The notes beneath the pieces were generated by a model, which saw only the letters and a list, made by a program, of their open reading frames with translations, ran no database searches and was not told the origin of the DNA. The position numbers and the translations under genes were made by a program. A DNA stretch of 64,000 nucleotides from Paenibacillus sp. MMS20-IR301. GTDB lineage: Bacteria; Bacillota; Bacilli; Paenibacillales; Paenibacillaceae. Positions 38,871-57,160 of the stretch are shown here, piece after piece. The DNA lies in the NCBI RefSeq assembly GCF_032302195.1, contig NZ_CP135275.1, positions 5,586,001 through 5,650,000 of the forward strand, given 5' to 3'. Each line of letters opens with the position of its first letter. Position 1 is the stretch's first letter.

Positions 38871-40118
38871 CTATCCGATCATAGTTCTTAATTCCTGCTC
38901 CGCTAGTTCCTCTTCCTCATAATGGATGGAGTACACCTTTAGCTTCTTCCCCGGCTCGCCCTCCAAGTGCCATGATTCCAAGCATGTTCCACTCGAAACG
39001 ATCCCCTCATGGTGAGGGTACAGGAGAAGAACCTCCTCAACAGCCTGATATCGAGTCAGATAAGCATACATCTGATAAAAATCCTCTCGTTTCACTCCAT
39101 GTCTTGATCGCTGCGAGTGAATCATTTTCCACTTGGTGTCCAGAATAACCGACTTGCCTTGTCCGTTCACCACCAACAAGTCTGGTTCCAATTGAAAAAC
39201 TCCTCTCGTGCTCCCCTCTCGAACGAGCAGCTTATGGCTTCTGTCCTTGATCGTAACTTGATCCCAGATGTTCCGGGCTAGATAAGCGATGTAAGCTTCG
39301 AACAGTTCGTTCATCTTAAACAGAATGGAGCTATTCTTACTTCCACCCGGCGAAGCGGTAGGGGTCGATTGGCGCAGCAAAAGCTTCGCTAACTGGAAAC
39401 TTTCTTGATAGCGGCGATTAGTGCGATCGAACCATACGCGGTCCATTTGGTCTAGGGTTAATGGAGGTCCCGTCACATCGTCCATCAATAAAAGACAGTC
39501 GGTAGCCCGCTTCTTCGTTGGGAAGTATCGAGAGCGTGCGGTTATGAGCTGCAAGCCGGTTTTGAGAATCTGATTTAGAGGGTTAGACACCTGAAACTCA
39601 TCATATGTACAACTGACACCCGGAAGCTTCATCGCATCCCTACGAAGCTGACGGCTTAGGTTGATTTTCCCCCTCACCAATTGCAGTTCTCCATCTTCAT
39701 GCTGATATGAGCGATAGATGCCCTTGCGAAGTTCGCACGATATTTTCTCCGTAAAAAGGTATGCTATAATCTCGAACAGATTGAGTTTCTCGAGCTGAAG
39801 CCATCCGGCCTGACTCTCATGAATATCCAAGAACCCGGACCGCTGCAGCATCCTGAGCAGAACTCTTCTCGATTGTGCCGGGTCGTCTCCGGCCACCTTA
39901 GGCAAAATCTCAATGGAGCAACCCCGTAGCTGAATGAACCCCACGTAATTGATAAAAGTAACTTCATAACGTGAGAAGATGATTTCCGTTTCATCTAGAC
40001 CGCTCGCACTAACATAATGAGCCAGTTCGTCCGCCTCCGCAGCCGTGAGGCTAACGCGAGTCAAGGAATCCGAGATAGGGATCGAGCCGAAGCACTCCGT
40101 AACCGTTAGATGCTTCAT
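38871..40118 (-). CDS. mcrC: McrC-family nuclease subunit of a McrBC-type restriction system
   Basis: McrC supplies the nuclease and stimulates the McrB GTPase. This 415-residue protein has the usual N-terminal domain (IQLRGCSIEILPKVAG near residue 65) and a C-terminal PD-(D/E)XK nuclease: LEPDLLVVNGQGKSVILDTKWK near residue 310, where Asp and Asp-x-Lys are the catalytic residues. The middle (RGKINLSRQLRRD) matches McrC proteins. The start overlaps the McrB stop by 4 bases (ATGA), so the two are coupled. Target DNA is probably modified at cytosine, but specificity is unknown. Confidence 0.93.
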   Translation of the reverse strand: MKHLTVTECFGSIPISDSLTRVSLTAAEADELAHYVSASGLDETEIIFSRYEVTFINYVGFIQLRGCSIEILPKVAGDDPAQSRRVLLRMLQRSGFLDIHESQAGWLQLEKLNLFEIIAYLFTEKISCELRKGIYRSYQHEDGELQLVRGKINLSRQLRRDAMKLPGVSCTYDEFQVSNPLNQILKTGLQLITARSRYFPTKKRATDCLLLMDDVTGPPLTLDQMDRVWFDRTNRRYQESFQLAKLLLRQSTPTASPGGSKNSSILFKMNELFEAYIAYLARNIWDQVTIKDRSHKLLVREGSTRGVFQLEPDLLVVNGQGKSVILDTKWKMIHSQRSRHGVKREDFYQMYAYLTRYQAVEEVLLLYPHHEGIVSSGTCLESWHLEGEPGKKLKVYSIHYEEEELAEQELRTMIG

Positions 40119-42721
40119 TCTTCGTCATCCTGTTCCACCGGATCAGCTGTCTGCTCATATATTCGTTTTAGAGCGGCTTCCGTTGGGTTCGATTGAACGA
40201 TATACCGGGACTTTCGCGGCTCCATCAGGCCTCCCGCCCTCTTGGCAAACAATACACTTGCCCGCAACTCCTCGATATTAAGAAAATACGATCGATCCCC
40301 CAATTTACCAGCCCCTCCGAGAACCAGTTCAATCCGTTCCCAGTCATCATAGAAATATTCCTGAAGGAGCGGAATCACTTTCTCAAACATGACCTTTATA
40401 TAAGCATCCGTAGAGGGCTTTTCCATTATAAAATACGAGTGCCCAATCACATGCTCCCGATCATAGAGAAACTCGATGCGCTTATTGATCGTTTCCAGGA
40501 GCTTTCGAACGTTGATTCCTTGCACATCGGTAGGAAGAATACCGTAATTCGGCAAAATCTCTTTAAACTCAAAACGTCTTCTGAGCGCTGTATCTAGTAA
40601 AGCGGTGGAACGGTCCGCGGTGTTCATAGTTCCTAGAATGTGAACATTCGAAGGGACTCGCAGTCGGTCCCCCGAGTATGGGAGCGTCACAGAGAGCTCA
40701 TTTTTCTGCCCCATCCGCTTATCCGGTTCTATCAAAGTAATGAGTTCACCAAAAATCTTTGAAATGTTGCCGCGATTGATCTCGTCAATAACGAGAACAT
40801 ACTGCTGGTCCTGGCTGTTATTCGATTGGTTGCCCGAGATCAACTTTTTCAAGCTCTCCATGTTCAAGTCCTTGTTATAGAACATATAAACAGTTTGTTG
40901 CGAAAACACCTTCTCCCGCAGAATGCTGTCCACGGGGAGATGGACTTCATTGTCCTCATATAACCATTGGACGCTGCGGAATTGGTGGTAACCAATCGTA
41001 GTCTCCGCCGTAAACGTATAGTCTCCGGTGATCTTGCCGATTGCCCGTGCCTTCTTGTTCCCATGAGAGATAATCACAATATCACCGATCTGCATCCAAT
41101 GCTTAAACCGTTCTACGAACTCTACACCGTAAGGATTTTCCTTCGGGAGTTGGGACTCATAGAGCTTGCGAATTTCCTGTTTATTCTTGCAGGAAGAGAA
41201 ATCTACTTTTTCTCCCCAACCAAGGGCGATTTGGTTGTTCTCGATACAATAATCGTAAACATCGTCCTCCCCGGCAAGAGTGTTTCCGAGAGACATTTTG
41301 AAAAACCGAGTCTTCTCCGGGTCGAAATCATAAGTGGTCTTCTTCTGTTCCGCCGAAGCCGCACGTGCCGCGCTGCACAATTGCTTGAAGAGGCCATCTT
41401 GAACTTCATAGCTGTTTTTCTCCTGACTGAAACGAATGCCCTCTACAAATTCCTCATAACTGAACGACTGGTGGAACGTACAGAACTTGATCTGATTGCT
41501 GTCTACATATCGGCTAAAAAGGCTCACAGCCTCGCCGCGGCGAGTCGGATTACTGAGCAAATCTGAGTCCACGGTCGGATCGAGAAGGGACAAAGCCTCG
41601 TAAATCACATTGTAAGTCTTGCCCGTTCCTGGTGGGCCGTAGAGGATTTTATTAAACGATTGATTTTTGGCCATAGGGGCGACTCCTCCTGTATCCTTGA
41701 TTAGTTGATCAGCGAAAAAGACTACATGATAAGCGTCCATCAAATCGCGAACGCTATCCGCGTTCGCTCGGGCATATTCCAGAACGAGATGAGCGATCTG
41801 ATTATATAAAGCGTATCTCTCTACCACATCATTAGGCGCATTGAAGCCGAGTCGATCAGCGTAAGGCCCGAAATCGTTCGGCCGGTAGAAAACATACTCC
41901 TCTGGGCTATAAGAAGCCAGAAGCATGGCTAGTAGCTGAACGGGCGTCTCCGCTTTGCGTTTGTTCGGCGGAAAATGACTATTGTTCAAGAGATTATTGT
42001 ACTCCTTGGCGAGGCGCCCCCGAACCGCCTCTGTGACGCCCTGATCGATCAATTCTTGCAAAAAATCTACACTCACTTGCGAAGTCGTATTCCGCAGAAA
42101 TACGAGGAAGTCTTCCAACCAGACGGAACCTGCAAACAGTCTCAGCAGGTTTGATCTAACGAACTTGTAATTGCCTTGGCCTGAGAGTATAGAGATCAGT
42201 TCAGCTATGGCCACGTTGGGATTCGTATCTAGCTTTCTCAGAACGGGGCCCACTGCAGAGACAATCTCATCCTTGAACCGTCGCTCCACTGCCTGATAAT
42301 TCTCTTCTTGGGTTTGCCTATATCGATTGAAGTTATTGAGGGTCTCCCGCATATACCGATATTCAATCGTTTTACCCGCATCCTTGCTCTGGAGAGCAAA
42401 GAGCTGTTTCAGAACTTTCTCGCTGTCCTTCTGCCATGCCTTACCATTTGGTCGGTCGTCCTTATAATGAACCATCGTGACGTCGGCAAAGTTGACGTTA
42501 GGGTGAGCTTGGAGAAGAAGGCGAACCCCCGTCATCTTAGACACATCCAGCCTCCCATTAACATCCGTAGAAGCGAGGACGGCAGTCTGTTCGAGCACCT
42601 TGACGTGATAATGGTTGCCTGTCAATTTGAAAGTCAATATGTAAAATTGCGTCTCCTTGTCGGAGACGTAATCCTTTCGCAGAATGCCAACTTCTGCTCT
42701 AGACATCATTTGTTCATTCAT
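40115..42721 (-). CDS. mcrB: McrB-family GTPase with an EVE-like domain inserted in the AAA+ module
   Basis: The protein, about 868 residues, is the motor of a modified-DNA-dependent restriction system. The first ~340 residues are an N-terminal region with no recognised DNA-binding domain. Walker A GPPGTGKTYN lies near residue 360, but Walker B LVIDEINRGNISKIFGEL lies near 640, far more than the usual spacing. The insert, about 465-615, reads like an EVE/PUA-type modified-base reader: MSLGNTLAGED..., IALGWGEKVDF, GDIVIISHGN and GYHQFRSVQWL. MNTADRS near 700 and an Arg-rich LDTALRRRFEF follow as in McrB. GGGAGG is 9 bases before the ATG at 42719-42721, which overlaps the upstream stop by 8 bases. 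Confidence 0.93.
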   Translation of the reverse strand: MNEQMMSRAEVGILRKDYVSDKETQFYILTFKLTGNHYHVKVLEQTAVLASTDVNGRLDVSKMTGVRLLLQAHPNVNFADVTMVHYKDDRPNGKAWQKDSEKVLKQLFALQSKDAGKTIEYRYMRETLNNFNRYRQTQEENYQAVERRFKDEIVSAVGPVLRKLDTNPNVAIAELISILSGQGNYKFVRSNLLRLFAGSVWLEDFLVFLRNTTSQVSVDFLQELIDQGVTEAVRGRLAKEYNNLLNNSHFPPNKRKAETPVQLLAMLLASYSPEEYVFYRPNDFGPYADRLGFNAPNDVVERYALYNQIAHLVLEYARANADSVRDLMDAYHVVFFADQLIKDTGGVAPMAKNQSFNKILYGPPGTGKTYNVIYEALSLLDPTVDSDLLSNPTRRGEAVSLFSRYVDSNQIKFCTFHQSFSYEEFVEGIRFSQEKNSYEVQDGLFKQLCSAARAASAEQKKTTYDFDPEKTRFFKMSLGNTLAGEDDVYDYCIENNQIALGWGEKVDFSSCKNKQEIRKLYESQLPKENPYGVEFVERFKHWMQIGDIVIISHGNKKARAIGKITGDYTFTAETTIGYHQFRSVQWLYEDNEVHLPVDSILREKVFSQQTVYMFYNKDLNMESLKKLISGNQSNNSQDQQYVLVIDEINRGNISKIFGELITLIEPDKRMGQKNELSVTLPYSGDRLRVPSNVHILGTMNTADRSTALLDTALRRRFEFKEILPNYGILPTDVQGINVRKLLETINKRIEFLYDREHVIGHSYFIMEKPSTDAYIKVMFEKVIPLLQEYFYDDWERIELVLGGAGKLGDRSYFLNIEELRASVLFAKRAGGLMEPRKSRYIVQSNPTEAALKRIYEQTADPVEQDDEE

Positions 42722-44060
42722 GGTGCGCATCCTCCCGATTTCCGACCTCGACGAGTAGCATTTGGAATTGTTCATTCTTTCCATTGCCTACGGTCAGATA
42801 GGCCTGCCAGTTAAGACGGTATTGCCCTTTCACCTGGATGACCTTTTCACGACCACTGGTGGTTCCAGCCGATGCGCCGTCCCAACTAAGCAAACCGTGT
42901 AGAAGACGCCTCTGATGGATGCGGAATGCTTCATCTATAGAGCCAGTGCGCGAGGACTTCATCCAATAGTTGTGGTCATTTGTTATCAGGAGGGCATAGC
43001 CTTTTGTTCCTGGCTTCTGAATGGCTACCCTTTCCAGTTTCTCGATATCACTCAAGAATTCATAACGTGAGATGTCTTGGGCAGCTTGATTCTTAAGATC
43101 AATTTCATTACCGTTGAAGATGGTTCGCAGCAAGGCGGTCTTATAACGAACCTCTATGGCCATAGCCTCGTGATCGTTATCCGCCCAGATATCGATCTTG
43201 GCTTGCCCTAGATCCAGGTTAAGTTGAACACGGTAGCCCTCGGCACGTAATCGCGCAGCGAGCTTGTCTCGTAAATCTAATTGTGAGCTGGGGATTGCAC
43301 CGATGGACGAAACGATTAATGGGAATCCTGTTTGGGGCTCCGTCGCCACCGTTATCGTCTCTTGGGCAGCCTCAATCTTGCTAGTAATCCCAGTTTCCCG
43401 TATCGCTTGAACGGGCGACTGTTTGACCAAGCAGTTCCCAACAGCGACAAGCAGGCATCGGATACTCCCGGCTGAAGTGGAAACCAATTCACTATAAGGC
43501 TGCCAGTTCAGCCTATAAGCGCCTTCCAACACAATGGGCTCCTCCCTCCCTTTCATCGTTCCTTCCCCCGTCTCTTCGCTCCACGGCAGAGTTCCAGTGA
43601 CAAGCCTTCCATCGTGTAAACGAAATGCCTGATCGGCAGTAACCTTATCCACCCTAGGCTCCTGATAGTAGGAAGTATCATTGGTCAGGAAAATCAACCA
43701 CCCCTCATCAACCAAGCCCAGCTTCACCATCTGCTCCAGCCGCTGCAAATCCTTCAGAACGTCGTACCGCCCAATATCTTGGGCACCCTGATTCAACAGA
43801 GAGTAGGTCTCCCCATCGAACGTATAATCAATCGCTCTCATTTTGTACTTGAGTTCAATCGCCGTTCTACGTCCATCCCGCTCTACCCAAATATCCAGAT
43901 ACGTTCTCTTCTTCGGATCGATTTCCATTCGCCGTTCCAATCGAATCTTACAGTCATAATGCTCCCGAAGCTCCCAAGCCAGCGCAAATTGAAAATCCGC
44001 TTCATTATGAAAAATCGGTCTCTTCCCAGTTAAAGCATTCATTAAAGCTTGTATGTCCAC
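42714..44060 (-). CDS. Tandem PD-(D/E)XK protein linked to McrBC
   Basis: This protein of 448 residues is an internal duplication. Repeat 1 (~1-190) and repeat 2 (~255-440) share DIW, IE[LV][KR]YK, QDI[GS]RY, LITND/LTNDT and a YRLNWQ ending. In repeat 1 the catalytic pattern is D56 with E69-L-K71; in repeat 2 it is D290 with E303-V-R305, so the catalytic Lys is Arg. One half therefore looks active and the other degenerate. The GTG at 44058-44060 is the probable start (GGAGGG 7 bases upstream); a longer frame to 44105 has none. It is the first gene of the operon ahead of mcrB. I know no named family for it. Confidence 0.85.
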   Translation of the reverse strand: MDIQALMNALTGKRPIFHNEADFQFALAWELREHYDCKIRLERRMEIDPKKRTYLDIWVERDGRRTAIELKYKMRAIDYTFDGETYSLLNQGAQDIGRYDVLKDLQRLEQMVKLGLVDEGWLIFLTNDTSYYQEPRVDKVTADQAFRLHDGRLVTGTLPWSEETGEGTMKGREEPIVLEGAYRLNWQPYSELVSTSAGSIRCLLVAVGNCLVKQSPVQAIRETGITSKIEAAQETITVATEPQTGFPLIVSSIGAIPSSQLDLRDKLAARLRAEGYRVQLNLDLGQAKIDIWADNDHEAMAIEVRYKTALLRTIFNGNEIDLKNQAAQDISRYEFLSDIEKLERVAIQKPGTKGYALLITNDHNYWMKSSRTGSIDEAFRIHQRRLLHGLLSWDGASAGTTSGREKVIQVKGQYRLNWQAYLTVGNGKNEQFQMLLVEVGNREDAHHE

Positions 44061-44550
44061 TCTTAATCCCTCCGGTGTTTGCGATTTGATATAATTAAAC
44101 CACATGTTTCTGACGATGGGATGTCATGGAATGTATGTCCCTGTGGAAGGATTATCTAATCTTGTTATTTCGACACATTTTACACACGTCCTTTTAGGAA
44201 TAGAAAAAAACCACTCCAGCTTCAATGAATTGAGGAAGGAATGACTCACTAATCAAACGTTGGCTGGAAGGCAGAATATCGAGATGGATTGATTAATTGA
44301 AGCATTGCTGGGCTAGGCATATAAAGCGGGTGTACGTAAGCTATTTGGGGTAAAACCGGAGCCTAAAGAAGAGATGACTACGGCAGGCTGTTTAGGCTGT
44401 CTCACCTATCTACTAACGGCAATCCTATACCCGGTCGACATTCAACGGCTTAAGCCACGGTTGAATACGAGATCGTTTACGAGCATATTTACACTTGGCC
44501 GAATTATTTGCCCGGATTGACTATATGAGAGTCCCAAAAACACGAGGCAG
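44061..44550. other. Operon promoter region and degraded IS sequence
   Basis: The first ~100 bases should hold the promoter of the leftward nuclease-mcrB-mcrC operon. The remainder (about 44200-44550) contains short protein-like stretches broken by stops and appears to be the ruined 5' part of the IS3-type element that follows. No intact gene is visible. Confidence 0.5.
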
Positions 44551-44814
44551 TTGAACCATCAAGGGATCGTCATCTCCGAACGCACGGTCGGCCGGATCAT
44601 GAGGAAACAGGGTTTTCGTTCGCGTACGGTCAAGAAGTACAAGGCGACCACCAACTCCAATCATACGCTGCCCATTCAAGACAACGTGTTAGACCGTGAG
44701 TTCCAAGCCACGAAGCACGGAGAGAAATGGGTAAGCGATATCACCTATATCTGGACCGTGGAAGGGTGGTTGTATCTGGTGAGTGTCATTGCATATCAAA
44801 CGACAATGGAATGA
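44551..44814 (+). pseudogene. IS3-family transposase fragment
   Basis: An 87-codon frame encodes part of an IS3-type orfB: the HTH-like ISERTVGRIMRKQGFRSR and then the start of the integrase core, KWVSDITYIWTVEGWLYL, containing the first catalytic Asp. It ends abruptly before the second Asp and the Glu, so it is inactive. Upstream sequence is degraded. It separates the McrBC operon from the GTPase operon. Confidence 0.75.
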
Positions 44815-44960: not shown

Positions 44961-44984
44961 AACGGCCACCTAATGGTGGCCGTT
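44961..44984 (-). terminator. Terminator of the GTPase operon
   Basis: AACGGCCACC (44961-44970) pairs perfectly with GGTGGCCGTT (44975-44984) around TAAT. Leftward it is followed by a T run, and it lies 64 bases past the last gene of the operon. Confidence 0.85.
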
Positions 44985-45048: not shown

Positions 45049-45699
45049 TTACCCTCCAATCACAAACCTGATGGCCTCCGCAGCGATGATAGCTACCAGT
45101 AGGCCGAACATGAAGTTGCGAGTCAACACATTACGTCGGCGTTCCTCCTTCAGCGCCACCAGTAATTCCATGTGTTGCTCTTTAGCCACTGACAGCTGAA
45201 CAGCCGCGCCTTCACGTATATCCGCCGCCGCCTCGCCCTGAGCAGCCATCTGCGCTTCTAACTGTTCAAAACGATCCATTAGCCTCCGATTCAGCTCATC
45301 CCACTGCTTAACCTGCTCCTGATTGAGATAGCTGAGATTATCCTGAATTGCAACAAAGTTATTTTGAAGTTGCACGAATACATCGATAACACCATGCAGG
45401 TCGACTAAAGATTGCTGATGTGATTCACGCAGCTCCTTTTTCATGTCGTCCAATGTTTGAAAGCTGTGTTGCGTAAACGCTTTGTGGAGTTCCTCCATCT
45501 TTAGGTCAATGTCTATTGGAACCTGCCGAATGGTCCCATTCATCGCCTCAATGCCCTTCTTGGACGTCTCATAGCTCAATTCCAGCCTGTCCACATGATC
45601 ATTGAGCTTGTTCTTTAAATCCTCATAGAAAAGATCGTCGTTGATTTGCCGGAGATCCTCGATCGCCTTGCGATATTTTTCGTTCACTTTATCTGTCAT
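45049..45699 (-). CDS. Tail-anchored coiled-coil membrane protein of the GTPase operon
   Basis: This 216-residue protein is almost entirely helical with long heptad-like stretches (residues ~5-180). It ends with one transmembrane helix (about 190-212, NFMFGLLVAIIAAEAIRFVI) and a short GG tail. It should therefore be anchored in the membrane with its coiled coil in the cytoplasm. GGAGG is 8 bases before the ATG. It follows the second GTPase gene by 4 bases, so the three are one operon. By analogy with dynamin-type systems it may be the membrane tether or scaffold. Confidence 0.85.
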   Translation of the reverse strand: MTDKVNEKYRKAIEDLRQINDDLFYEDLKNKLNDHVDRLELSYETSKKGIEAMNGTIRQVPIDIDLKMEELHKAFTQHSFQTLDDMKKELRESHQQSLVDLHGVIDVFVQLQNNFVAIQDNLSYLNQEQVKQWDELNRRLMDRFEQLEAQMAAQGEAAADIREGAAVQLSVAKEQHMELLVALKEERRRNVLTRNFMFGLLVAIIAAEAIRFVIGG

Positions 45700-45703
45700 G
45701 CGA

Positions 45704-47602
45704 TTAACCTCCGCTTGTAGCTTGCTGTGTAATCTGTTGCTGCTCGTATCGTTCTAACCATTGCATATCCTGAAACATCAAGTTCCAGTATTGATGGTAA
45801 AGCCACTTCTCCGTAGCCGGCACGACTGGGGAGACCAGGTGCTCGTAATAGGTTCGGGATTGTGCCGTGAATGATTGCTGCAAATACAGATTGCGCTGCG
45901 CCACTCTACGCTTGTCTTGTTTCCAATCCAGATGGGACTTCACCATACTGTGCTCAATCCGCTCTGTTTCCAGTTCGAGTTCCATTTTCCTCTTATCTGC
46001 ATGAGTTTTTTCCTTCGCAATTGTCCGGAGTTGCCGTTCCAGCCCCGCTTTATAAACCGCAAGCTTTGCTGCAAGATCCTTTTTCACTTTAGCTAGCGCC
46101 TCATATAGTCGGTCAAATTCCCTGTCGTTTGCTTCTTTCAATACCGTCTCGCATTGTGCAAGATCTTTTGAGAACGCAGATTCCGACCAGTATCGGTCAA
46201 TAAACTTATCGATGCTTACGCTCGGCTTAACAAACGCAAAATTCACTTTCAAGCATGTTAGCTCATAGCTCTTGGCTGACCTCTCTAGCGTCTTCATGAG
46301 GTCTTTCAGCAAACGCTCGTAATCATTCGCAAGCTTGTCGACAGCAAGCATGAATTCGTTTTTCAATAAATTCGCTGAGCATTGCTTCCATGTACGTTCA
46401 GACCAGCCTGGAAACATATGTATGGATGGCTTCGTAAAGGTCAGCTGCTTCAAATACTGCAGATCGATTTCACAGTGTTCTAATGAATGTTCCAGCTTTG
46501 TCTCTTTAATCGCCAAAACTTTCTGGCTCGTCATATTTTCTTTCAGCATTTTAGCGTTTTGTGCCAATTCCTGCTTGTACATGATTGATGCCTCATGGCT
46601 TCGCTTCTCCACAAGCCCGTCGAGGTCCATCATCCGAATAATATGATGACGTGGTGAACAGGTGGCACTTAAATCTTGAATGAGCTGCGAGTAGATCGCG
46701 TCGACCAGTGGCTTGGATTTTCGGTAGAGTTCAGGGTCATTTCGCTCAATAGAGTCCCAGGAATCTCCGAACTCCAAAGGATAGACCTCTACCCTACAGC
46801 TTCTGTCGTCAGCGAGTAGTCGGGTCAGCTCATGGCGGTATTCCTGCTGTAGTTCTACCGGTGACGGGTAGGCGTCCTGGGTCAGTCGCCGTTTCACGGA
46901 AGAATCCGATATAGCTCTCGTCAGTACGATTCTGAACTTGCTGGGCTGCCACTGCCAATCCCTGACATGTTCCTGTTGGAGTTGAGTCAATTGCACGAGT
47001 TGACTGGATATCTCCATCAGGATGCATACATTGCAGTGTGGGAGATAATCCTTCAAGCAACGATCCACGTGCGCCTTCTCTCGCTCTTCTTTGCCGTCAT
47101 CGCCAGGCAGATCCAGAATTTCAATCGTCTGCTCGCGCCTTGCAAGCTCAGTCTGGTCGAATAGAAACCTCGCAAGCTGAATCGTGATCGGTCGAGTCGG
47201 ATAGGATTCCTCCGATTCAACAGTCTCTCGAAGCTCAGTCATCACCTCAGCAAGTTGAGGCAAGTCCGCACAGGAACGCACCTGCCCGCCCGGAAAATAC
47301 ACATGAAATATATCATCCTCGGATTGCCGGTAGTTTGTACTGGTCACCGTCGCTGAGTTCCCGACGGCACGGTTCCCACGCAACGCCTTCGAAAGAGCGA
47401 CGAGATGCATATCGCGGATCCCGAGAATTTTCAGGATCAACGTCGTTTTCCCGACCTGAGTGGGACCGTAAACGCCGATCGTCACCCGTTGTTTATTATC
47501 CCCTCTCTCTTGTAGCCCAAGAAATCCGCTCTGGAATTCCTCTACGCCACTCATCGTCCAATCCCAGCGCTCCGCGTCAAGCTTACAAAGTAAGTCCAGC
47601 AT
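45704..47602 (-). CDS. Dynamin-like GTPase with a long coiled-coil C-terminus
   Basis: In this 632-residue protein the G1 loop is GPTQVGKTT at about residues 46-54, a switch-I-like SATVTSTNY lies at 83-91, and G3 is DLPGDDG at 164-170. No canonical N/TKxD follows; the place is taken by IVLTRA. The C-terminal ~300 residues are helical and highly charged, consistent with a dynamin-type stalk. It overlaps the upstream GTPase gene by 20 bases. The ATG at 47600-47602 has a poor ribosome binding site, so coupling to the upstream gene is likely. It is part of a three-gene set in a defence island. Confidence 0.82.
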   Translation of the reverse strand: MLDLLCKLDAERWDWTMSGVEEFQSGFLGLQERGDNKQRVTIGVYGPTQVGKTTLILKILGIRDMHLVALSKALRGNRAVGNSATVTSTNYRQSEDDIFHVYFPGGQVRSCADLPQLAEVMTELRETVESEESYPTRPITIQLARFLFDQTELARREQTIEILDLPGDDGKEEREKAHVDRCLKDYLPHCNVCILMEISSQLVQLTQLQQEHVRDWQWQPSKFRIVLTRAISDSSVKRRLTQDAYPSPVELQQEYRHELTRLLADDRSCRVEVYPLEFGDSWDSIERNDPELYRKSKPLVDAIYSQLIQDLSATCSPRHHIIRMMDLDGLVEKRSHEASIMYKQELAQNAKMLKENMTSQKVLAIKETKLEHSLEHCEIDLQYLKQLTFTKPSIHMFPGWSERTWKQCSANLLKNEFMLAVDKLANDYERLLKDLMKTLERSAKSYELTCLKVNFAFVKPSVSIDKFIDRYWSESAFSKDLAQCETVLKEANDREFDRLYEALAKVKKDLAAKLAVYKAGLERQLRTIAKEKTHADKRKMELELETERIEHSMVKSHLDWKQDKRRVAQRNLYLQQSFTAQSRTYYEHLVSPVVPATEKWLYHQYWNLMFQDMQWLERYEQQQITQQATSGG

Positions 47603-49835
47603 GTCTCAAGACCAGTTGCTTCTGAATAATGGCGTTTAGCTTCTTGATGCGACGGGATGCATACTGAATCTTCTCGAGATAACCGTCCTGGTCATAAGCG
47701 CCGATACGCCGCTGATGGACCTCACGAAGCTTGTCTGCCATCGTTTCAAGTGTGTTCCGTAAGGAGTTGACGAACGCTTCCGCCTGCAGAGCCGGTAACA
47801 AATCAATGACGTTACGTCCAGCCTGCGAAAGCTCCAACTGGTAACGATTCGTCTCCTGTACCCCCTTTTGTATCGCATTCACTGCATAGACGGTCGCGAA
47901 GCCGGCACCCAGCATTGTAACCAGCCCGAGTGGCGATACCGTGATGCCGAGACCAGCCAGCGCTTTAGTCGCATTGTTGAGGATGTCGCTTTCTCCGTCA
48001 ACCACGATATCCACTCCAAGGATAACAGGGATAATTTTCAGTACTAAGGGAGAAAGCTTTTTAAGCGTGTCAAGATGTCCAGAGAATGTCTCTACGTCCT
48101 TAATCGTCTTATCCATCGCTTTTATCTGATCCTGGCCGATCGGCACTCCCAAGCGCATCATTTCCTGTATGTCGCTTGCCTCGGCGAGCAACGGCTGAGC
48201 CACAAGCGACTGGCCTCCAAGCATGAAGCCGATGGTTACCAACGCCTTCAGGTCGTCACGGTCAAGTGGGTCTACGATCGTATCTCCATGTTTCGCGAGA
48301 TCGAAGAAGCGATCAATCTTCGCCAGAGCGCTTCGGTTGAGCTTCGCATGTGCGGACGAAACGACTGACACTCCGGGGACTTCTCTCACCTTCCCTGCCG
48401 TTACTCCGGGTGAGCCAGGAGTGATCGGAACCGCCGGTATGATCGAAAGCGGCTGAATTACCGGAACTTCCAGTATGCCCGAGGACGCAACGCTTGGTTT
48501 CTCCGCCTGCCCGTTCGGTAGCCCTAGTAACTCTGCGTTTCTACTGGCGTACGCATCCACGCTACGAATGATTGTCTCATCCGGTTTCTCCACCGCTGAC
48601 TGCAGCCAGGCATCTTCAATCGCACGCTGTAGCTTCTCCTGTTCTTCCAGAGCATTCGGCGTAAATCGGGAAGTGAACCTTTTCCAGAAACTGTGGTTAT
48701 CCTTAATATAGGTGTTGAAAATCGAATGCGCCTTCTGTGTCCGCGCGGTGAGCTTGTCCTTAATCTCCCGCTCTAGAAGAGCTAAGTCCTTCTCATATAT
48801 ACTTTCGAAATAATATAGTAGCTGTGCTGTGCTCTCGAAACTGCCGTTGTTGCTGCTTGCGATATTTTGAATCTCTTCAGCTTTCAACAGTTGATCAAGA
48901 TGACCCAACTGCTTCCGGACATTGTCTGTTAACTGTTCCAAAAGCCGAAGCTGCTTTAGCTCACTTTCACCGCTCACATAGCCGTATTTCTGCACTGCCT
49001 TCGTTAGACTGTGTAGCCATTCCTCCCCAAAACTCACGGGATCGCCGGCCACAACGATTCTGTCGCTCTCCTCGATTCCAATACCGAAGTCTTCGCCCAT
49101 TTGGGCCTTCATCGCCTCGTTATGCTCGGGGTTGATATCTCCGTGGGATAGAACGTAAATCGGCTTTACGTCCCGATAAACGTCTTTCACTCGTCTGAAC
49201 ATCGTCTCGTTACTCTGCCGGGCGTAAGTATCCTTGCGAAACACAACGATACTGGAGGTAGATAAATAGAGCAGGTGTAGAAGCAACTGCTGGGAACTCT
49301 GGCTGTCGTCTTTTTCGAAGCCCGGCAGCAGGGCCAATGACTTGCTGGAATCGCGGAAGTAGCGATTAGGCACTTTAAGTTCCAGCCAGATATCGTCGGT
49401 CGACGGATTGGAAGCAATATTGCGAAACGCAGCGGATTCCAGTGGCGTTGGTTCCAGTAAATAGTCCTCACCGCGGATACTTCCCCGCCAGACCTGACCT
49501 TCCGGTTGGCTGATATCATACTCGGTAATCAATATTGGAAGTTGCTCACCGCGGCCCGGATTCTCGGGAAGATATTGATCGTCTAGTTCGTACAGTCGCT
49601 TCACGATCGTCGTCTTTCCTGCACCCTGCAACCCGGTAACCGCTACAACCTGCCGTTCCTGCGTCAACACGGCAAGAGCGAACTTGTTATGTATTTCTTT
49701 AAGTTGTTGAATAAGTACACTGCCTTCGTCCGACAGGAAGATATCGAGCCCAGATCCGACTATTTCGCCTATTAGCTGTCGAAGCCGGTTACGCATATCG
49801 TGAAAAGCAGAGGTCAAATGGACGGTTTCTGTCAT
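47583..49835 (-). CDS. Dynamin/LeoA-like GTPase with hydrophobic middle segments
   Basis: This 750-residue protein has G1 GLQGAGKTT near residues 68-76, G3 LLPGFEKDD near 169-177 and a G4-like VLSHGD near 228-233. Helical regions and a Pro/Val-rich linker (~470-510) follow. Two hydrophobic stretches near 610-670 (LVLKIIPVILGVDIVV and GLVTMLGAGFATVYAV) could insert into a membrane like the paddle of bacterial dynamins. GGAGG is 9 bases before the ATG at 49833-49835. Family knowledge: dynamin-like pairs such as LeoA/LeoBC (Eleos) act in phage defence. A similar role here is inferred from the operon and the island. Confidence 0.83.
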   Translation of the reverse strand: MTETVHLTSAFHDMRNRLRQLIGEIVGSGLDIFLSDEGSVLIQQLKEIHNKFALAVLTQERQVVAVTGLQGAGKTTIVKRLYELDDQYLPENPGRGEQLPILITEYDISQPEGQVWRGSIRGEDYLLEPTPLESAAFRNIASNPSTDDIWLELKVPNRYFRDSSKSLALLPGFEKDDSQSSQQLLLHLLYLSTSSIVVFRKDTYARQSNETMFRRVKDVYRDVKPIYVLSHGDINPEHNEAMKAQMGEDFGIGIEESDRIVVAGDPVSFGEEWLHSLTKAVQKYGYVSGESELKQLRLLEQLTDNVRKQLGHLDQLLKAEEIQNIASSNNGSFESTAQLLYYFESIYEKDLALLEREIKDKLTARTQKAHSIFNTYIKDNHSFWKRFTSRFTPNALEEQEKLQRAIEDAWLQSAVEKPDETIIRSVDAYASRNAELLGLPNGQAEKPSVASSGILEVPVIQPLSIIPAVPITPGSPGVTAGKVREVPGVSVVSSAHAKLNRSALAKIDRFFDLAKHGDTIVDPLDRDDLKALVTIGFMLGGQSLVAQPLLAEASDIQEMMRLGVPIGQDQIKAMDKTIKDVETFSGHLDTLKKLSPLVLKIIPVILGVDIVVDGESDILNNATKALAGLGITVSPLGLVTMLGAGFATVYAVNAIQKGVQETNRYQLELSQAGRNVIDLLPALQAEAFVNSLRNTLETMADKLREVHQRRIGAYDQDGYLEKIQYASRRIKKLNAIIQKQLVLRHAGLTL

Positions 49836-50270
49836 AGCTTTATTCCTCCAGTAGGTATCACGCTGTTTTTGTCTAAAGTCATGAGACATAATACCTATAC
49901 TACCTTATTTTCGGAGATAGTTGAATCAGTAATTAACCGTATGGAAATCGATTCCATGCAATATTCACCTATTTATGTCTGAAGAAACAAAGTATTAGAG
50001 TGGCTCTAAAAAAATAACAGTGATAGCAAAGGACGAGGAAATAAAGCCCTAGACTGTCGCTGTTTCATTAAACTATTGTTCTGGATAGCATAGGCATTCA
50101 ATGTTCTCAGACTAAATCTTTGAGTTCGTTTATCGGCTTCATACAAGTACCACCTTCAGAGTGAATACGAGCAGAATTTCAAACAATATCATAGCTTTTT
50201 TACTCCCCACAGATGAAAATAAAGGAGCAATTAGGTCTAAATCCTCCACGAATGAAAGGTGATCAGAAAG
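49836..50270. other. Divergent intergenic region with a near-palindrome
   Basis: No supported gene. ATGGAAATCGATTCCAT at 49941-49957 is palindromic apart from one extra base and lies about 105 bases before the GTPase operon, so it is a candidate operator. AAAGGTG at 50255-50261 serves the rightward gene. Confidence 0.45.
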
Positions 50271-51170
50271 ATGGAGCTTTATCACATTAAGGGGACGGTG
50301 GTAAAGACCGGGGCCATAGTTAATGAAGTGATAGAGGCTCCTGGTCCAAGAACAGCCCTACGGGCCGTTTTACGAATACATGGAAGATTAAAACGGAGAT
50401 ACGATATTTACACAGAATCGTTTTTAGAGCCTAATGCCTATCCTGTATCGAAACCTTCTGCCGTCATTGAACCTGTGCTTTGTGACCACTGCGTTTGCCG
50501 AATTGGGAAAACCATCCGTAATGGAACAGTTACTCCCGATGAATATAGGTTATTTTCTCTTTACTTTGAGCGGATCATTCGTAGTGCACTGCGTATGTGT
50601 TGGACAGATGTTCGGGACGTTCCGCCATCAGATATGGAAACTGAAATGATTGAGCGAATTGCGTTCGAATTTTTACCGCGCTTTGATGCTCGGTGGAAAT
50701 TACGTCCTTTTATCAGACGGAATATTATTAGCCGGCTGAATAAGAGATGGAATCGTAAAAAATACGTGAATGGGAATATAGCTAAGCCTAGAGTGCAGAT
50801 AGAGCAGCAGTATGCTATGGCCACCCTCAGATCACCGGAAAAGATAGATCCGGAAGTGACCCGGAATGTCCTGATTAGCACTGCACTCCGATTGGAGGAT
50901 GAGGGAAGGACGCTTACCCGCGCGCAAAAGAAAAGCTACTATCAGCTGATTGTTCATGTAGGTATGCATAAAGAGTGCTTAAAAAGCTCCGTACAAATTG
51001 AAACGCTCGAACACTGTTATGGCGATAATGCCACCACTGAAAGGGAGTATGGTGTAACGCGCGGCCGTAAACAGGCAACCGTCCACCGGAATAAACGCCG
51101 TGCAGAAGATAATGTCCTTAAATATATTCGTAAGAATTTGCGGTATAGTATAAAAACGTCTGTTTTTTGA
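50271..51170 (+). CDS. Sigma-factor-like protein
   Basis: The 299-residue protein starts at an ATG with AAAGGTG about 9 bases upstream; an in-frame GTG at 50259 is an alternative. After an N-terminal ~80 residues with a CDHC pair, residues ~85-170 resemble sigma region 2 (RLFSLYFERIIRSALRMC, FDARWKLRPFIRRNIISRL). The C-terminus (REYGVTRGRKQATVHRNKRR) resembles the helix-turn-helix of region 4. It could be an alternative sigma factor or a phage-type activator. It precedes a run of terminators and a toxin-like gene; whether it drives them is unknown. Confidence 0.55.
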   Translation: MELYHIKGTVVKTGAIVNEVIEAPGPRTALRAVLRIHGRLKRRYDIYTESFLEPNAYPVSKPSAVIEPVLCDHCVCRIGKTIRNGTVTPDEYRLFSLYFERIIRSALRMCWTDVRDVPPSDMETEMIERIAFEFLPRFDARWKLRPFIRRNIISRLNKRWNRKKYVNGNIAKPRVQIEQQYAMATLRSPEKIDPEVTRNVLISTALRLEDEGRTLTRAQKKSYYQLIVHVGMHKECLKSSVQIETLEHCYGDNATTEREYGVTRGRKQATVHRNKRRAEDNVLKYIRKNLRYSIKTSVF

Positions 51171-53407: not shown

Positions 53408-54105
53408 TTAATAAATAATTTGGTCATATCCTGCATTCAACATGAAAAATCGAGGCTTAAATCGTTCGACGGTTCGCTTCATGAGTGTAGGTCCCTCATC
53501 GCCATCATTCACATGAGCAGGTGTAACGTTGAGGGCAATCGGAAGTTCACTCTTCGTATCGACGGACAGATGCAGCTTATACCCAAACCACTTGACTTTG
53601 TTGCCAAACGTATCGAGTTTAACTCCCCAGTTGGCATTGCCGGTGAGTTCGCTTTTTCGCTTGGGTTCTTTTTTCTCGTGGCTGCGCTGTCGATGGCGAC
53701 ATGAGTTCCGTCGATGATTTCAGCTTCTTGACACTGAGCGACAAGATCGTCAAACAACTGCTGAGCAAGGCCTTTGCGAGTCAACTCGGCAAAAACTCGA
53801 CTTAACGTAGAAATCGAAGGGGCGGGGATGTCCAGCCGAAGTCCACACTGGTAACGGAAGTGAAGGTCAAACTCCAGTCTGCGCGTAAGGCCGGTGAACG
53901 TATCGATGTTCTCTAAGGGTGCCGCGAGTAATGCACGAAGAATACCTTGACGGCAGTGTCCGTCCGCTCCTCGGGGTGAAGGATTTCTCAATGGTCTCGC
54001 ATACGGTCGTAAGTCCTGTGCGCTGAAAAAGATAGGCAATCGCTCTTTCGATTCCATTTTTTGAAGCTCCTCAAAGGAAAACAGACTTTCTTGGAGAATA
54101 TACAT
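53408..54105 (-). pseudogene. Truncated IS4/IS5-type DDE transposase
   Basis: It begins at the ATG at 54103-54105 with AGGAGG 9 bases upstream (MYILQESLFSFEELQKM). It contains the first catalytic Asp region EIIDGTHVAIDSAA. At 53668-53674 (complement A AAA AAG) the frame shifts by -1 and continues as KEPKRKSELTGNANWGVKL to MLNAGYDQ, where it stops at 53408. The family normally has DAGYD at that place, so the second Asp is Asn, and everything after is missing. The element is dead. Confidence 0.75.
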
Positions 54106-54318
54106 AGGGGACTTCCTCCTCTTGAGTGTTTTGGTGTCGTTACCAAAAAACTTCTCCAAGTTAGGGTGAAGTCCTTTTTTATGCTTGAAAAACCGTTGTG
54201 TAACAAGGGCTTAGATTAATGCAAATGCTCGGTTACAAAATCGTCAGGTATTGAGAAATAAGTTTTAGACTGAAAAAGATAACATAATAACTATCCACTA
54301 TTTACGAGAAAATAATTA

Positions 54319-55293
54319 TTAGACTGAGGATTCTATATCTACATCAGTTGTACTTCTGAATTTAATAATCGTATCTCTTATCTTACTTATAGTAATATCC
54401 ATGTCCTCATATAAATCTAAAATATGATTCTCTTCAAATCCATTTGGTGTTATTTTTCTATCAAAGTCATCTATTGCAATAGGAATACAAAATAATACAC
54501 TTTGACTACTTGAATGCATTATCTCTCTTATTATTTTTAATTCATCATAAAAATAACCCTCAGTATTCATAATGGATTTTTCGGAGAAACAAACAATAAC
54601 AAATTCCGATTTTTCAAGAGCATTCCTAATTTCTTGTTTCCATTTTTCACCAGGCAGTATCTCCTCTGTATCCATCCATACCTTTAACCCATGTTCATCA
54701 AGTTTTTTACGCAATTGAGATGTAATATCTTTATCAATTCTTGAATAGGAGATAAATACTTTCGCAGGATTTAATATATGTCTAAGTTCTTTACGCAATA
54801 TTATCGACTCATTCAACAATTCTCTAACCAAAGTATCTTCCCATATGAAACTCTCCAGTGTAAATATGAGCACTTTCGTAGCATATTCATGAATATCCCA
54901 TAACTCATTAAGAACTCTACAGGCACGATCGACATCAAATAACTCAAGGTTTTTTCCTTTTCTTAGGTAGTATATGAACCAACCCGCTTGCAAATTTGTT
55001 CTCCATGGTTTAATTAAAATAATTGATAGTATTTCGGATAATAATTCAATATCCTCATCTGATTGAGCATTCTCAACTAATTTTGCAAAATGAGTTCGTC
55101 TACGTTCTGGTTGTGAAAGTTGATGTAATTCCCAAAACCTCAACAACTCATCAAAATCAGCTGCTATGATACCTATTCCGCCGTGTGTGTTCTTTATTTT
55201 CTCTTTTAATTCTCCCCATCCTTGATCAATAAATTCATCATTTTCATCCCACACTAAGCCTTTTTCATACTCATGAATTTTAATGTCAATCAC
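54319..55293 (-). CDS. TIR-domain protein with an N-terminal helical domain (third TIR of the Thoeris locus)
   Basis: This protein of about 324 residues has an N-terminal domain of ~185 residues with no recognised family (IDIKIHEYEKGLVWDEND at its start, helical afterwards). A TIR domain follows: AKVFISYSRIDKDITSQLR, LKVWMDTEEILPG, and YFYDELKIIRE. The GTG at 55291-55293 overlaps the previous stop (GTGATTGA) and is a likely start; ATGs at 55326 and 55317, or a longer frame from 55362, are alternatives. It is the last gene of the Thoeris-type operon. It may make a nucleotide signal or cleave NAD; neither is shown. Confidence 0.82.
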   Translation of the reverse strand: MIDIKIHEYEKGLVWDENDEFIDQGWGELKEKIKNTHGGIGIIAADFDELLRFWELHQLSQPERRRTHFAKLVENAQSDEDIELLSEILSIILIKPWRTNLQAGWFIYYLRKGKNLELFDVDRACRVLNELWDIHEYATKVLIFTLESFIWEDTLVRELLNESIILRKELRHILNPAKVFISYSRIDKDITSQLRKKLDEHGLKVWMDTEEILPGEKWKQEIRNALEKSEFVIVCFSEKSIMNTEGYFYDELKIIREIMHSSSQSVLFCIPIAIDDFDRKITPNGFEENHILDLYEDMDITISKIRDTIIKFRSTTDVDIESSV

Positions 55294-56419
55294 TCCGATT
55301 CCATTGAACAATTTCATTCTCAGCATTATAATCAAGTCCTGCAAATAGCATGTCTTCTTCAACTGATAGATTGATACAAAATATTGATTTTCCTAGATTG
55401 TTAAAATAATCTAATTCAAAATTAACCCAATCAGACTCAATAGAGTTCTTTGTTTTAACAAATACTAAGTTTCTTGATTGCTCTAACCTTTTTTGTAATA
55501 CAACCTTTGTATATTCACTGACTAGCTCTCTTTTTAGGAAGTCATTATCACTTGTCCAGTCACAGTATACATTAAGAGAATGCTTATTAAAGGCTTTCAT
55601 AATCTTCTTTATGATTGCGGAGTCTTTGTAACTATGTGAAATAAATACATCATATACTTTTTTGTTTTGCACATTGTTACTTTCAATTCTATTTAATAAA
55701 TCGAGAGGAGTCATGTAAAACTGACTTCTCTCTGTCATATATTCTTTTTTCTTTCCTTTATAGTGTTTTCTTAATTTAGCGTAGCTTCCTGTCGATTGTA
55801 AGTGCTTAAACGCCATATTCCTAATTTGGTTATTCCGTTCACTATCATTAAGCTTGTAAAAAAACTCAATAACTTTTCTTGATTTATATTTCTGTAGTTC
55901 TTTAAATATCTCGAGCTTTCCGTCTATACTTATGCCTTTTTTGTGATAAGCAGCAATAAAGGCATCAATATAAAGTGGTTCAACGTTTTGAATAAGTTCA
56001 TTAGCTTTAGCAATCTTTTTATTCCTACTTTGAATAGCGCTTTGCCTCTTGGCCTTATAATTATCGAGCCTTTGTTGATAACCATTCTTATCAAAGTTGG
56101 CCTTGTGCTTGGCAATCGCCCCCTTAGATATCATGTGTTTGACTTTAGGCAAATTGAGAAAATGTTCTCTCGGTGGATCAGGCTTATATCTGATCTTCTT
56201 ACCGTTCTTTGATAAAAATGCATCTTTCTTTTTATATTGATGATAACGTTGATCTAATTCCATCCACTCTCTAGGATACAGATCTTGAAATAACTCCAAC
56301 AGCGTTTCAGCGCTGTAGTTATAAGGTAATACATCAGATAACCGTCTCAATATTCGACTTATAGTCTTATTGATTCGCATTGTTTCACCAACGTACTTTC
56401 TTTGGGCTATACCAGGCAT
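55286..56419 (-). CDS. TIR-domain protein with a basic N-terminal domain (second TIR of the Thoeris locus)
   Basis: This 377-residue protein has an unusual Lys/Arg-rich N-terminal ~250 residues (RINKTISRILRRLSD, KLRKHYKGKKKEYM) that might bind nucleic acid. It ends in a TIR domain (YDVFISHSYKDSAIIKKIM, LNVYCDWTSDN, SDWVNFELDYF), where the last segment holds the expected catalytic Glu. AGGAG is 10 bases before the ATG. It follows thsB by 29 bases and overlaps the next TIR gene. The N-terminal domain may define what infection signal it senses; this is inference. Confidence 0.82.
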   Translation of the reverse strand: MPGIAQRKYVGETMRINKTISRILRRLSDVLPYNYSAETLLELFQDLYPREWMELDQRYHQYKKKDAFLSKNGKKIRYKPDPPREHFLNLPKVKHMISKGAIAKHKANFDKNGYQQRLDNYKAKRQSAIQSRNKKIAKANELIQNVEPLYIDAFIAAYHKKGISIDGKLEIFKELQKYKSRKVIEFFYKLNDSERNNQIRNMAFKHLQSTGSYAKLRKHYKGKKKEYMTERSQFYMTPLDLLNRIESNNVQNKKVYDVFISHSYKDSAIIKKIMKAFNKHSLNVYCDWTSDNDFLKRELVSEYTKVVLQKRLEQSRNLVFVKTKNSIESDWVNFELDYFNNLGKSIFCINLSVEEDMLFAGLDYNAENEIVQWNRSD

Positions 56420-56448
56420 ACTTGTGGTTCTCCTAATTACGAGTAATT

Positions 56449-57123
56449 TTAAACACTTTTTCGGATGTTATATTGATCTATATTTTCATTAATGTTATAT
56501 GCTATTTGAAGATATCCATCGATATTATCAATAAAATCTGACCACTTAACAGAACGAATGTACGAAGACTCCCCTGTGTACACCTTGCTTCCTTCGTTGT
56601 GATTACTGCAATCACTATATGTTGGTGACTTAAGGTTAAACATGTTTTCTCTTAAGATTTTAAATAGAGTATTTGTCATCAGCGTCGTACATTTGCAATA
56701 CGGACATGAGTTGTCTTGAATGAAATATTCATAACCATTATTTGGATCTGGCAAAACAACCGTCAATAAAGCATTAGCGCCACTCGTTCTACCATCTCTC
56801 GTTAGCTCTTTCAATGAATATGAAATTTCCCAGGGTATCCACTGATCTTCCTCATTAGTATAAATAGTCTTCATATTTTTAGAAATTAATATGATGGTGA
56901 TACTACTATCAAAAATTTTTTTCTTCAATCCAGTCCAAATTGTTTCATCTTTAAATTCACTTAGGTCCTCACCATCAGCTTCGCCTTTGTTAATGTGATC
57001 ATCTTCTTTTAACTTACTTTGTAGCTCATCTACGTAATTTCTTACTGTCGTAAAATAGTTGCCGTTTAAAGGATACACACTGCTGTCAGAATATTTATAA
57101 GAAACAAAGATTTTTCTCCCCAT
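56449..57123 (-). CDS. thsB: Thoeris TIR protein ThsB
   Basis: This TIR protein (224 residues) matches the ThsB/MTH538 type, [15 protein letters not shown] at the start and [12 protein letters not shown] near residue 94-104, with E99 the candidate catalytic Glu. A C-terminal extension has a CPYCKC pair that could bind metal. Family knowledge: on infection ThsB makes a cyclic ADP-ribose isomer that activates ThsA. It lies 37 bases downstream of thsA. Its length is slightly above that of the studied Bacillus ThsB. Confidence 0.9.
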
Positions 57124-57160
57124 AATAAATCACTCCCAAAAGTAAGATATTTTATTAAAA

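Follow-up and report, generated by a model that had tools for sequence, protein, structure and literature searches.

Bacterial dynamins often come in pairs, which raises the question of how they are recruited to membranes and why two of them are needed. A locus in Paenibacillus sp. MMS20-IR301 bears on it. The window, i.e. the whole stretch of 64,000 nucleotides that was analysed (contig NZ_CP135275.1, positions 5,586,001 to 5,650,000), is part of a 7.69-Mb single-contig genome. On its minus strand lie three consecutive genes, here termed A, B and C, which code for two different dynamin-like proteins and a tail-anchored protein of the coiled-coil type. What is this triad for? We propose a single mobile functional unit, a membrane-acting cassette directed against phages or mobile elements, in which the tail-anchored protein would act as an adaptor that recruits a pair of one active and one degenerate dynamin. 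We give this reading an even chance; function, docking, pairing, nucleotide cycle, trigger and outcome are what we infer from the computational data below.

Gene A (47583..49835, minus strand) encodes a dynamin-like protein of 750 amino acids with paddle-like hydrophobic segments. Its reading frame is open to 49889; the ATG at 49835 is the likelier start because it is preceded by GGAGG. Gene B (45704..47602, minus strand) encodes a dynamin-like GTPase of 632 amino acids with a long helical stalk, and gene C (45049..45699, minus strand) the coiled-coil-type protein of 216 amino acids. A and B overlap by 20 bp, the gap between B and C is 4 bp, and the three genes make up one operon-like unit. 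The positions of the open reading frames (ORFs) bear out the first-pass annotation of this DNA, which had described two overlapping GTPase genes followed by a tail-anchored protein and one terminator. An intrinsic-terminator-like hairpin with a 10-pair stem and a T-rich tail is indeed present 64 bp past C (44961..44984, minus strand), yet the region is no richer in such sites than shuffled sequence (4 versus a mean of 4.3); consequently, position and stem length are what supports this hairpin. No promoter-like site stood out in the triad region (5 versus 6.4 in shuffles). Upstream of A a divergent ORF of 303 amino acids (50259-51170) looks sigma-factor-like by eye; family searches gave no match for it.

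Are A and B dynamins? No Pfam or NCBIfam model scored above its cut-off for A, B or C. For Pfam Dynamin_N, B of the window reached 18.4 bits against a cut-off of 27 and A was without a listed match; at E <= 1e-3 the model recognised 11 of the 40 rows of the B alignment and 2 of the 33 rows of the A alignment. Profiles of A and B, compared with the sequences of solved structures, gave P-loop, coil and marginal BDLP matches (E 0.5) and no others among the matches listed. Therefore, the assignment rests on the comparison of folds, in which the predicted models of both A and B matched the dynamin superfamily with a dynamin-type GTPase head and a helical stalk. The pair of different dynamin-like proteins supposed at first is thereby supported. 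A comparison with the structures of LeoA and GIMAP-like proteins had also been suggested. It placed LeoA at rank 22 for B and outside the best 50 fold matches for A; GIMAP-like proteins were absent among the best 50 of each search, which does not imply their exclusion.

Here we examined whether the arrangement recurs. One pattern derived from B was scanned over 84,980 species genomes. At least 26 loci were found, in Bacillota and Pseudomonadota; the true number may be higher, since only sequences with TQVGKT fit the pattern. (Numbers with L and G designate loci and genomes of our survey.) In 25 of the 26 loci A directly precedes B, at one of them (L021) masked by an overlapping ORF and recovered in a separate look; L034 is cut off within B by the end of its contig. 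When four plasmid loci were included and L034 was not, A adjoined B in 29 of 29 loci. A separate survey yielded L062-L065, all with A, B and C in this order and with a tail anchor; L062 and L064 are identical with L016 and L018, while L063 and L065 were new. Hence the three-gene order, for which a search had been advised, recurs across both phyla. Because the order of the genes and the features of each protein are repeated in distant bacteria, it is confirmed that the arrangement exceeds chance. Pairwise distances were strongly correlated in 28 loci (A-B, r 0.96; A-C, 0.80; B-C, 0.85; 0 of 2000 permutations reached these values) and, for A-B, within each phylum (0.96 and 0.98). This shows that A, B and C travel together; it does not show physical contact.

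How do A and B differ? The naming of the GTPase motifs G1 to G4 follows what we take to be their usual positions. B has the G1/P-loop GPTQVGKTT (residues 46-54; 47441..47467, minus strand), of which G46, T48, Q49, V50, G51, K52 and T53 are present in 30 of 30 loci. The DxxG motif is DLPG (residues 164-167; 47102..47113, minus strand), again in all 30 loci including D164, and its placement agrees with the predicted model, where a strand ends at 164 directly before LPG. The G4 region is without a conserved Asp in the 30-locus alignment. In none of the 30 loci does the stalk of B carry a hydrophobic segment past residue 330; some B proteins have one within the GTPase domain, the window copy has none at all. 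In A the G1/P-loop reads GLQGAGKTT (residues 68-76; 49608..49634, minus strand) with G68, Q70, G73 and K74 in 30 of 30 loci. At the place of DxxG stands LLPG (residues 169-172; 49320..49331, minus strand), as part of LLPG[FY]E at the G3 place. Leu169 replaces the Asp in every one of the 30 loci, none of which has kept it, and is invariant in the 33 rows of the A1 alignment. Here, too, the predicted model agrees, a strand ending at residue 169 directly before LPG. Judged by sequence and model, A is a degenerate member of the dynamin superfamily which has kept the fold and lost the DxxG Asp.

Hydrophobic segments are distributed just as unequally. The two strongest in A, residues 594-612 and 626-644 (47904..48056, minus strand), form a putative membrane paddle, with D613-G614 between them invariant in A1; weaker ones start at 453 and 532. 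A hydrophobic segment past residue 480 is present in A of all 30 loci, so the paddle-like segments first noticed in the window are a conserved property of this protein. An N-terminal membrane segment, defined by a mean hydropathy of >=1.6 and a start within the first 40 residues, was seen in 0 of 30 A and 0 of 30 B proteins. At a threshold of 1.4 two A proteins (L027, L022) display a segment starting at 40 or 48.

Where, then, is the membrane anchor? C ends with a hydrophobic segment at residues 196-214 of 216 (45058..45114, minus strand). In 29 of 29 loci (window, 25 genome loci, L037, L038 and L040; for L016 the ORF following the second piece of B was taken) the ORF that follows B carries one strong hydrophobic segment, the end of which is <=20 residues from the C-terminus. 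Applied to 198 control ORFs the same rule selected one, and applied to 175 neighbouring ORFs of 130-400 amino acids it selected three. At the 30th locus, on pGOX1 (L039 9239-12658), the annotation of NC_006672 places B in two frames, and B is split from the remainder of C, an ORF still ending in a tail anchor, by an IS5-family gene. This supports the dedicated membrane anchor which the first-pass annotation had postulated. Several enterobacterial C proteins are labelled 'coiled-coil domain-containing' by PGAP. At the other end of C, residues 9-28 (45616..45675, minus strand) form a helix-like motif. Of all 20-column stretches it is the most conserved one in each of the two C alignments, with a mean identity of 0.63 versus 0.34 overall in 12 Bacillota sequences and 0.46 versus 0.32 in 16 sequences of Pseudomonadota, without L033. 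We consider it a putative docking motif. Thus, 30 diverse loci exhibit a natural division of labour, with the hydrolysis motif in B, the paddle-like segment in A and the anchor in C.

Is the triad a known system? The layout had been likened to Eleos (LeoA/LeoBC), and a general resemblance, a tandem pair of dynamin-like proteins, does exist; Eleos is listed as a defence system in PADLOC. A full-length LeoA or LeoBC match is absent. All matches of PADLOC 2.0.0 to the triad were weak. The best, LeoA against A (E 4e-4), covers residues 44-86, i.e. the P-loop; LeoBC gave weak matches of the helix type to residues 289-437 of A (E 0.0013) and residues 3-165 of C (E 0.012), and had no useful match in B (E 0.4). 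According to the available text of the LeoA report, leoC and leoB are upstream of leoA, LeoC has a predicted membrane helix next to its GTPase domain, and paddle or membrane-binding regions are described for LeoA as well as for LeoBC (PMC4159319). In A and B of the triad no helix comparable to that of LeoC was found. The authors suggested that LeoA and LeoBC may each have to contribute parts for GTP to be bound and hydrolysed; in the text available a separate tail-anchored protein is not described for LeoA-LeoB-LeoC (PMC4159319). By the tests made we would not file the triad as Eleos because neither a full-length LeoA/LeoBC match nor a GTPase-adjacent membrane helix was found. That the triad is a diverged Eleos to which an anchor gene was added is accordingly very improbable in our judgement: the tandem dynamins and the weak matches to A and C speak for it, whereas the failure of LeoBC to match B, the low rank of the LeoA structure, the different gene order and membrane regions in both Leo partners, as against none at the N-termini and none in the stalk of B, speak against it.

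Other bacterial dynamins can be compared as well. The adjacent, different dynamin-like genes DLP1 and DLP2 of Campylobacter jejuni yield a heteromeric complex, a DLP1/2 tetramer, and the structures 5oxf and 5owv are among the best fold matches of the triad. The third gene of that operon differs, being an HcpA-like beta-lactamase in the part of the report available (PMC6104087), and the profiles of A and B matched no DLP chain by sequence among the matches listed. In mycobacteria iniBAC comprises two dynamin-like genes plus a third, and IniA ranks among the top fold matches of A as well as of B; unlike what is proposed here, iniBAC is induced by cell-wall drugs, as far as the accessible text goes (PMC6715688). 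Bacillus subtilis DynA, set beside the triad by its description, is dynamin-like and phage-linked; it moves from the cytosol to the membrane after phage induction and delays lysis, and, differently, has two dynamin units fused in one chain (PMC8844932, available part). A Bacillus cereus survey merges the DefenseFinder class 'Dynamins' with Eleos in the text accessible (PMC11811056); this class also counts dynamin-like proteins as defence and was compared by description. A description of the triad was not found among the listed papers on dynamins and phage defence, as covered by titles and the openings of abstracts, with most subscription papers and supplements outside this scope. Dynamin is not mentioned in the main text of the DefensePredictor paper, and neither dynamin nor Eleos in the E. 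coli defence-island paper. The claim that the system is undescribed, for which the lack of family models over cut-off and the weak PADLOC matches also speak, holds for the sources searched.

Gene order, folds, motifs, paddle-like segment, tail anchor, co-divergence, mobility and a partial defence context were established by computation. How might the three proteins work together? C would be held in the cytoplasmic membrane by its C-terminal helix with the coil extending into the cytoplasm, and its conserved N-terminal helix would dock the soluble GTPase B. B, with P-loop and DxxG intact, may pair head to head with A. Because A kept the P-loop and lost the DxxG Asp, it probably binds nucleotide without normal hydrolysis. 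The GTP cycle of B would then drive assembly and push the paddle of A into the membrane. On infection, the assembly might remodel or clamp the membrane at a site disturbed by the phage and delay lysis and release, as reported for DynA; alternatively, it might wreck the membrane and so abort the infection. Between these two outcomes we lean slightly to delay. By analogy, and as far as the parts of the reports available go, the pairing has an experimental precedent in DLP1/2 and phage protection by a bacterial dynamin one in DynA.

A eukaryotic parallel suggests itself. Soluble Drp1 is recruited by its receptor Mff, which is a coiled-coil protein with a tail anchor and, near its N-terminus, a docking motif; the likeness to the triad is one of analogy. 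In its strongest form our proposal reads that the triad is a counterpart of such receptor-recruited dynamins, in which C, by its N-terminal docking helix, would gather an obligate pair of catalytic B and paddle-bearing A devoid of DxxG at the inner membrane. The three would then be an immune system so far unrecognised, which has spread horizontally in Bacillota and Pseudomonadota and has reached rare E. coli. This we hold tentatively, as possible rather than probable. If phage protection were true, a dynamin receptor system would be added to bacterial immunity, in parallel to antiviral Mx and to Drp1 recruitment.

Does the neighbourhood indicate defence? In the window the triad is placed as first described, between a restriction system and Thoeris. 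On the lower-coordinate side are McrC (38871-40118), a McrB-like gene (40115-42784) and a nuclease-like gene of 463 amino acids (42714-44105); on the higher-coordinate side a TIR gene, two ThsB-like genes, ThsA and type I restriction and specificity genes follow, beyond which an N6_Mtase gene runs off the window's end. Elsewhere, a complete Azaca set is directly upstream at L029 (ZacA, ZacB and ZacC with E 4e-82, 5e-110 and 1e-298), and the decayed copy L041 adjoins annotated phospholipase D and helicase-like genes. On pGOX1 an E1-E2/JAB-domain gene of the CBASS-associated kind sits between a gene with weak LmuA and RT-associated matches and an annotated patatin gene. E. coli copies are directly beyond ydeT, one with AbiTii, HamA and broken helicase genes, another with HNH and restriction genes; decayed copies at this site are followed by ABC-three-component (ABC-3C) genes. 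The literature was checked for an E. coli hotspot at ydeT, and no published one was found. Bacillota loci gave single IetA/IetS-type and ApeA matches. Within ~20 kb of the triad 9 ResIII domains were present versus 4.0 expected in 24 genomes (P 0.02), counted by eye among the matches listed (to ~E 1e-8, 2e-4) so that weak neighbours can be missed, with L013 and L015 outside these genomes. A split made afterwards gave 6 versus 1.9 in 13 Pseudomonadota (P 0.014). The type I methylase PF02384 was found within <=15 kb as a strong match in 2 of 24 genomes (G000, G109) and weakly in G121, too few to lean on. PADLOC families were compared between neighbours (165/171 ORFs of >=220 amino acids from 29 loci) and controls (149/150 drawn from 209). 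At E <= 1e-15, 22 families were matched by the neighbours at the Bacillota loci, L037 and L038 and 189 by those at the other loci, of Pseudomonadota; these counts are inflated by paralogous models, some controls are only ~19-45 kb from the triad, and the picture is a rough one.

Several points weigh against a role in defence as proposed. Other Bacillota neighbourhoods contain mostly transport, sugar and transposon genes (best 25 of 99 families), and in E. coli S43 and R2 the surroundings consist of sugar-use genes and IS elements. By the E1-E2/JAB gene of pGOX1 no cyclase was recognised. Three of the 9 ResIII domains come from the window, the starting point of the finding; when it is left out, 6 versus 3.9 remain, which is not significant (P 0.20), and 10 other Bacillota have 0 versus 2.0. 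Control regions also matched PADLOC families, 28 and 60 in their two halves. Moreover, the loss of DxxG in A does not prove lost hydrolysis. Plasmid copies, finally, are near heat-resistance, tellurite (ter) or conjugation (tra) genes. Two of them, near a heat-resistance locus and ter genes, fit a different idea, namely an envelope-stress or drug-tolerance operon whose dynamin pair repairs or stabilises the membrane under chemical or heat stress as an accessory fitness trait, not as immunity. The same two-dynamin-plus-third-gene layout of drug-induced iniBAC (PMC6715688, text accessible) agrees with this idea, as does the fact that Bacillota neighbourhoods other than the window are not defence-rich. 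The placement of copies by Thoeris and restriction-modification, Azaca, E1-E2/JAB, Hachiman-like or, for decayed copies, ABC-3C genes argues against it, and we regard it as unlikely. Linkage to defence islands thus is real in places and not universal; the original defence claim is sustained by the neighbours seen in the window, at several Pseudomonadota loci and at some of E. coli, and mostly not by those in other Bacillota. As a defence system the triad has real but unproven promise.

The triad is patchy and mobile. Full-length B was absent from 60 genomes of the same genus and 39 of the same order, in which one weak match of 97 residues was found. In 398 genomes of the class Bacilli 19 B matches were obtained, 14 of them short and 5 full-length, namely the window copy and four others, one of which carries an inner stop. 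In the same genome as the triad of the window (G000:C1), at 1.07, 3.16 and 4.97 Mb (L001-L007), there are three more clusters of 2-3 Dynamin_N proteins; the profiles of A and B match no ORF in them. Apparent IS remnants, seen by eye from translations, flank the triad of the window (44551-44814 and 53509-54159). B matches were found in 12 of 72,556 plasmid records, one decayed and 6 typed conjugative. The whole cassette is present in 5 of 5,426 E. coli genomes, on the chromosome in 3 and on a plasmid in 2, with 96.5-100% DNA identity to a Klebsiella plasmid copy; this makes the triad testable. The plasmid records, a Pseudomonas luteola copy near tra genes and mobI, and an integrase within <=~10 kb in at least three genomes (G105, G108, G109) could indicate a function for plasmids or integrative elements themselves, such as entry exclusion, control of conjugation or mobile-element maintenance. 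We consider this quite improbable, as the majority of whole E. coli copies and the one in the window are chromosomal or part of a megabase contig, no fixed linkage to transfer genes was apparent in the loci viewed, and neither of two scans of viral contigs turned up a confirmed relative of A or B. One unannotated 6.6-kb 'Bacteriophage sp.' record has a partial B match with 28% identity.

Decayed copies occur as well. Of 18 matching E. coli records 13 are partial: one has part of A, in ten 359 bp of C are left and in two 61 bp. L041 on a Sphingomonas plasmid (10000-13752) is a decayed triad that has lost A, beside Azaca-like genes. Its ORF of 1250 amino acids was considered as a natural A-B fusion, which was rejected: by profile search it consists of a helicase-like start and a 5'-truncated B, with no A. 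Decayed and interrupted copies would be expected if carriage is costly, and therefore fit an abortive-infection membrane killer, i.e. a system of the same anatomy that permeabilises the host membrane on infection. Patchy distribution, mobility and predicted membrane attachment would suit such a killer, too. In the family-library searches no toxin-like family was above cut-off for the triad proteins and, to our knowledge, known dynamins remodel membranes and are not pore makers. We view killing as rather unlikely and retain the membrane-acting, adaptor-recruited dynamin pair as our proposal.

Some minor observations remain. In six enterobacterial copies (L038, L080-L083, L085) two small ORFs of 141 and 129 amino acids precede A, at ~400-1400 bases in L080-L083 and L085 and at 11265-12225 in L038; they were not seen at L037 or L084. 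The ten E. coli genomes with the 359-bp piece of C also match the region holding these ORFs. In the window, the 463-amino-acid gene by McrB/McrC seems by eye to contain two copies of one nuclease-like domain, with a weak MTES_1575 match, and the three genes (38871-44105) are possibly a variant of type IV restriction. The Thoeris row (54319-58618) consists of ThsA, two different ThsB-like proteins (377 and 224 amino acids) and an extra TIR protein of 347 amino acids. Further away, at 31078-33522, a protein of 814 amino acids combines a PrimPol part (PADLOC E 3e-89) with a subsequent helicase part (ResIII).

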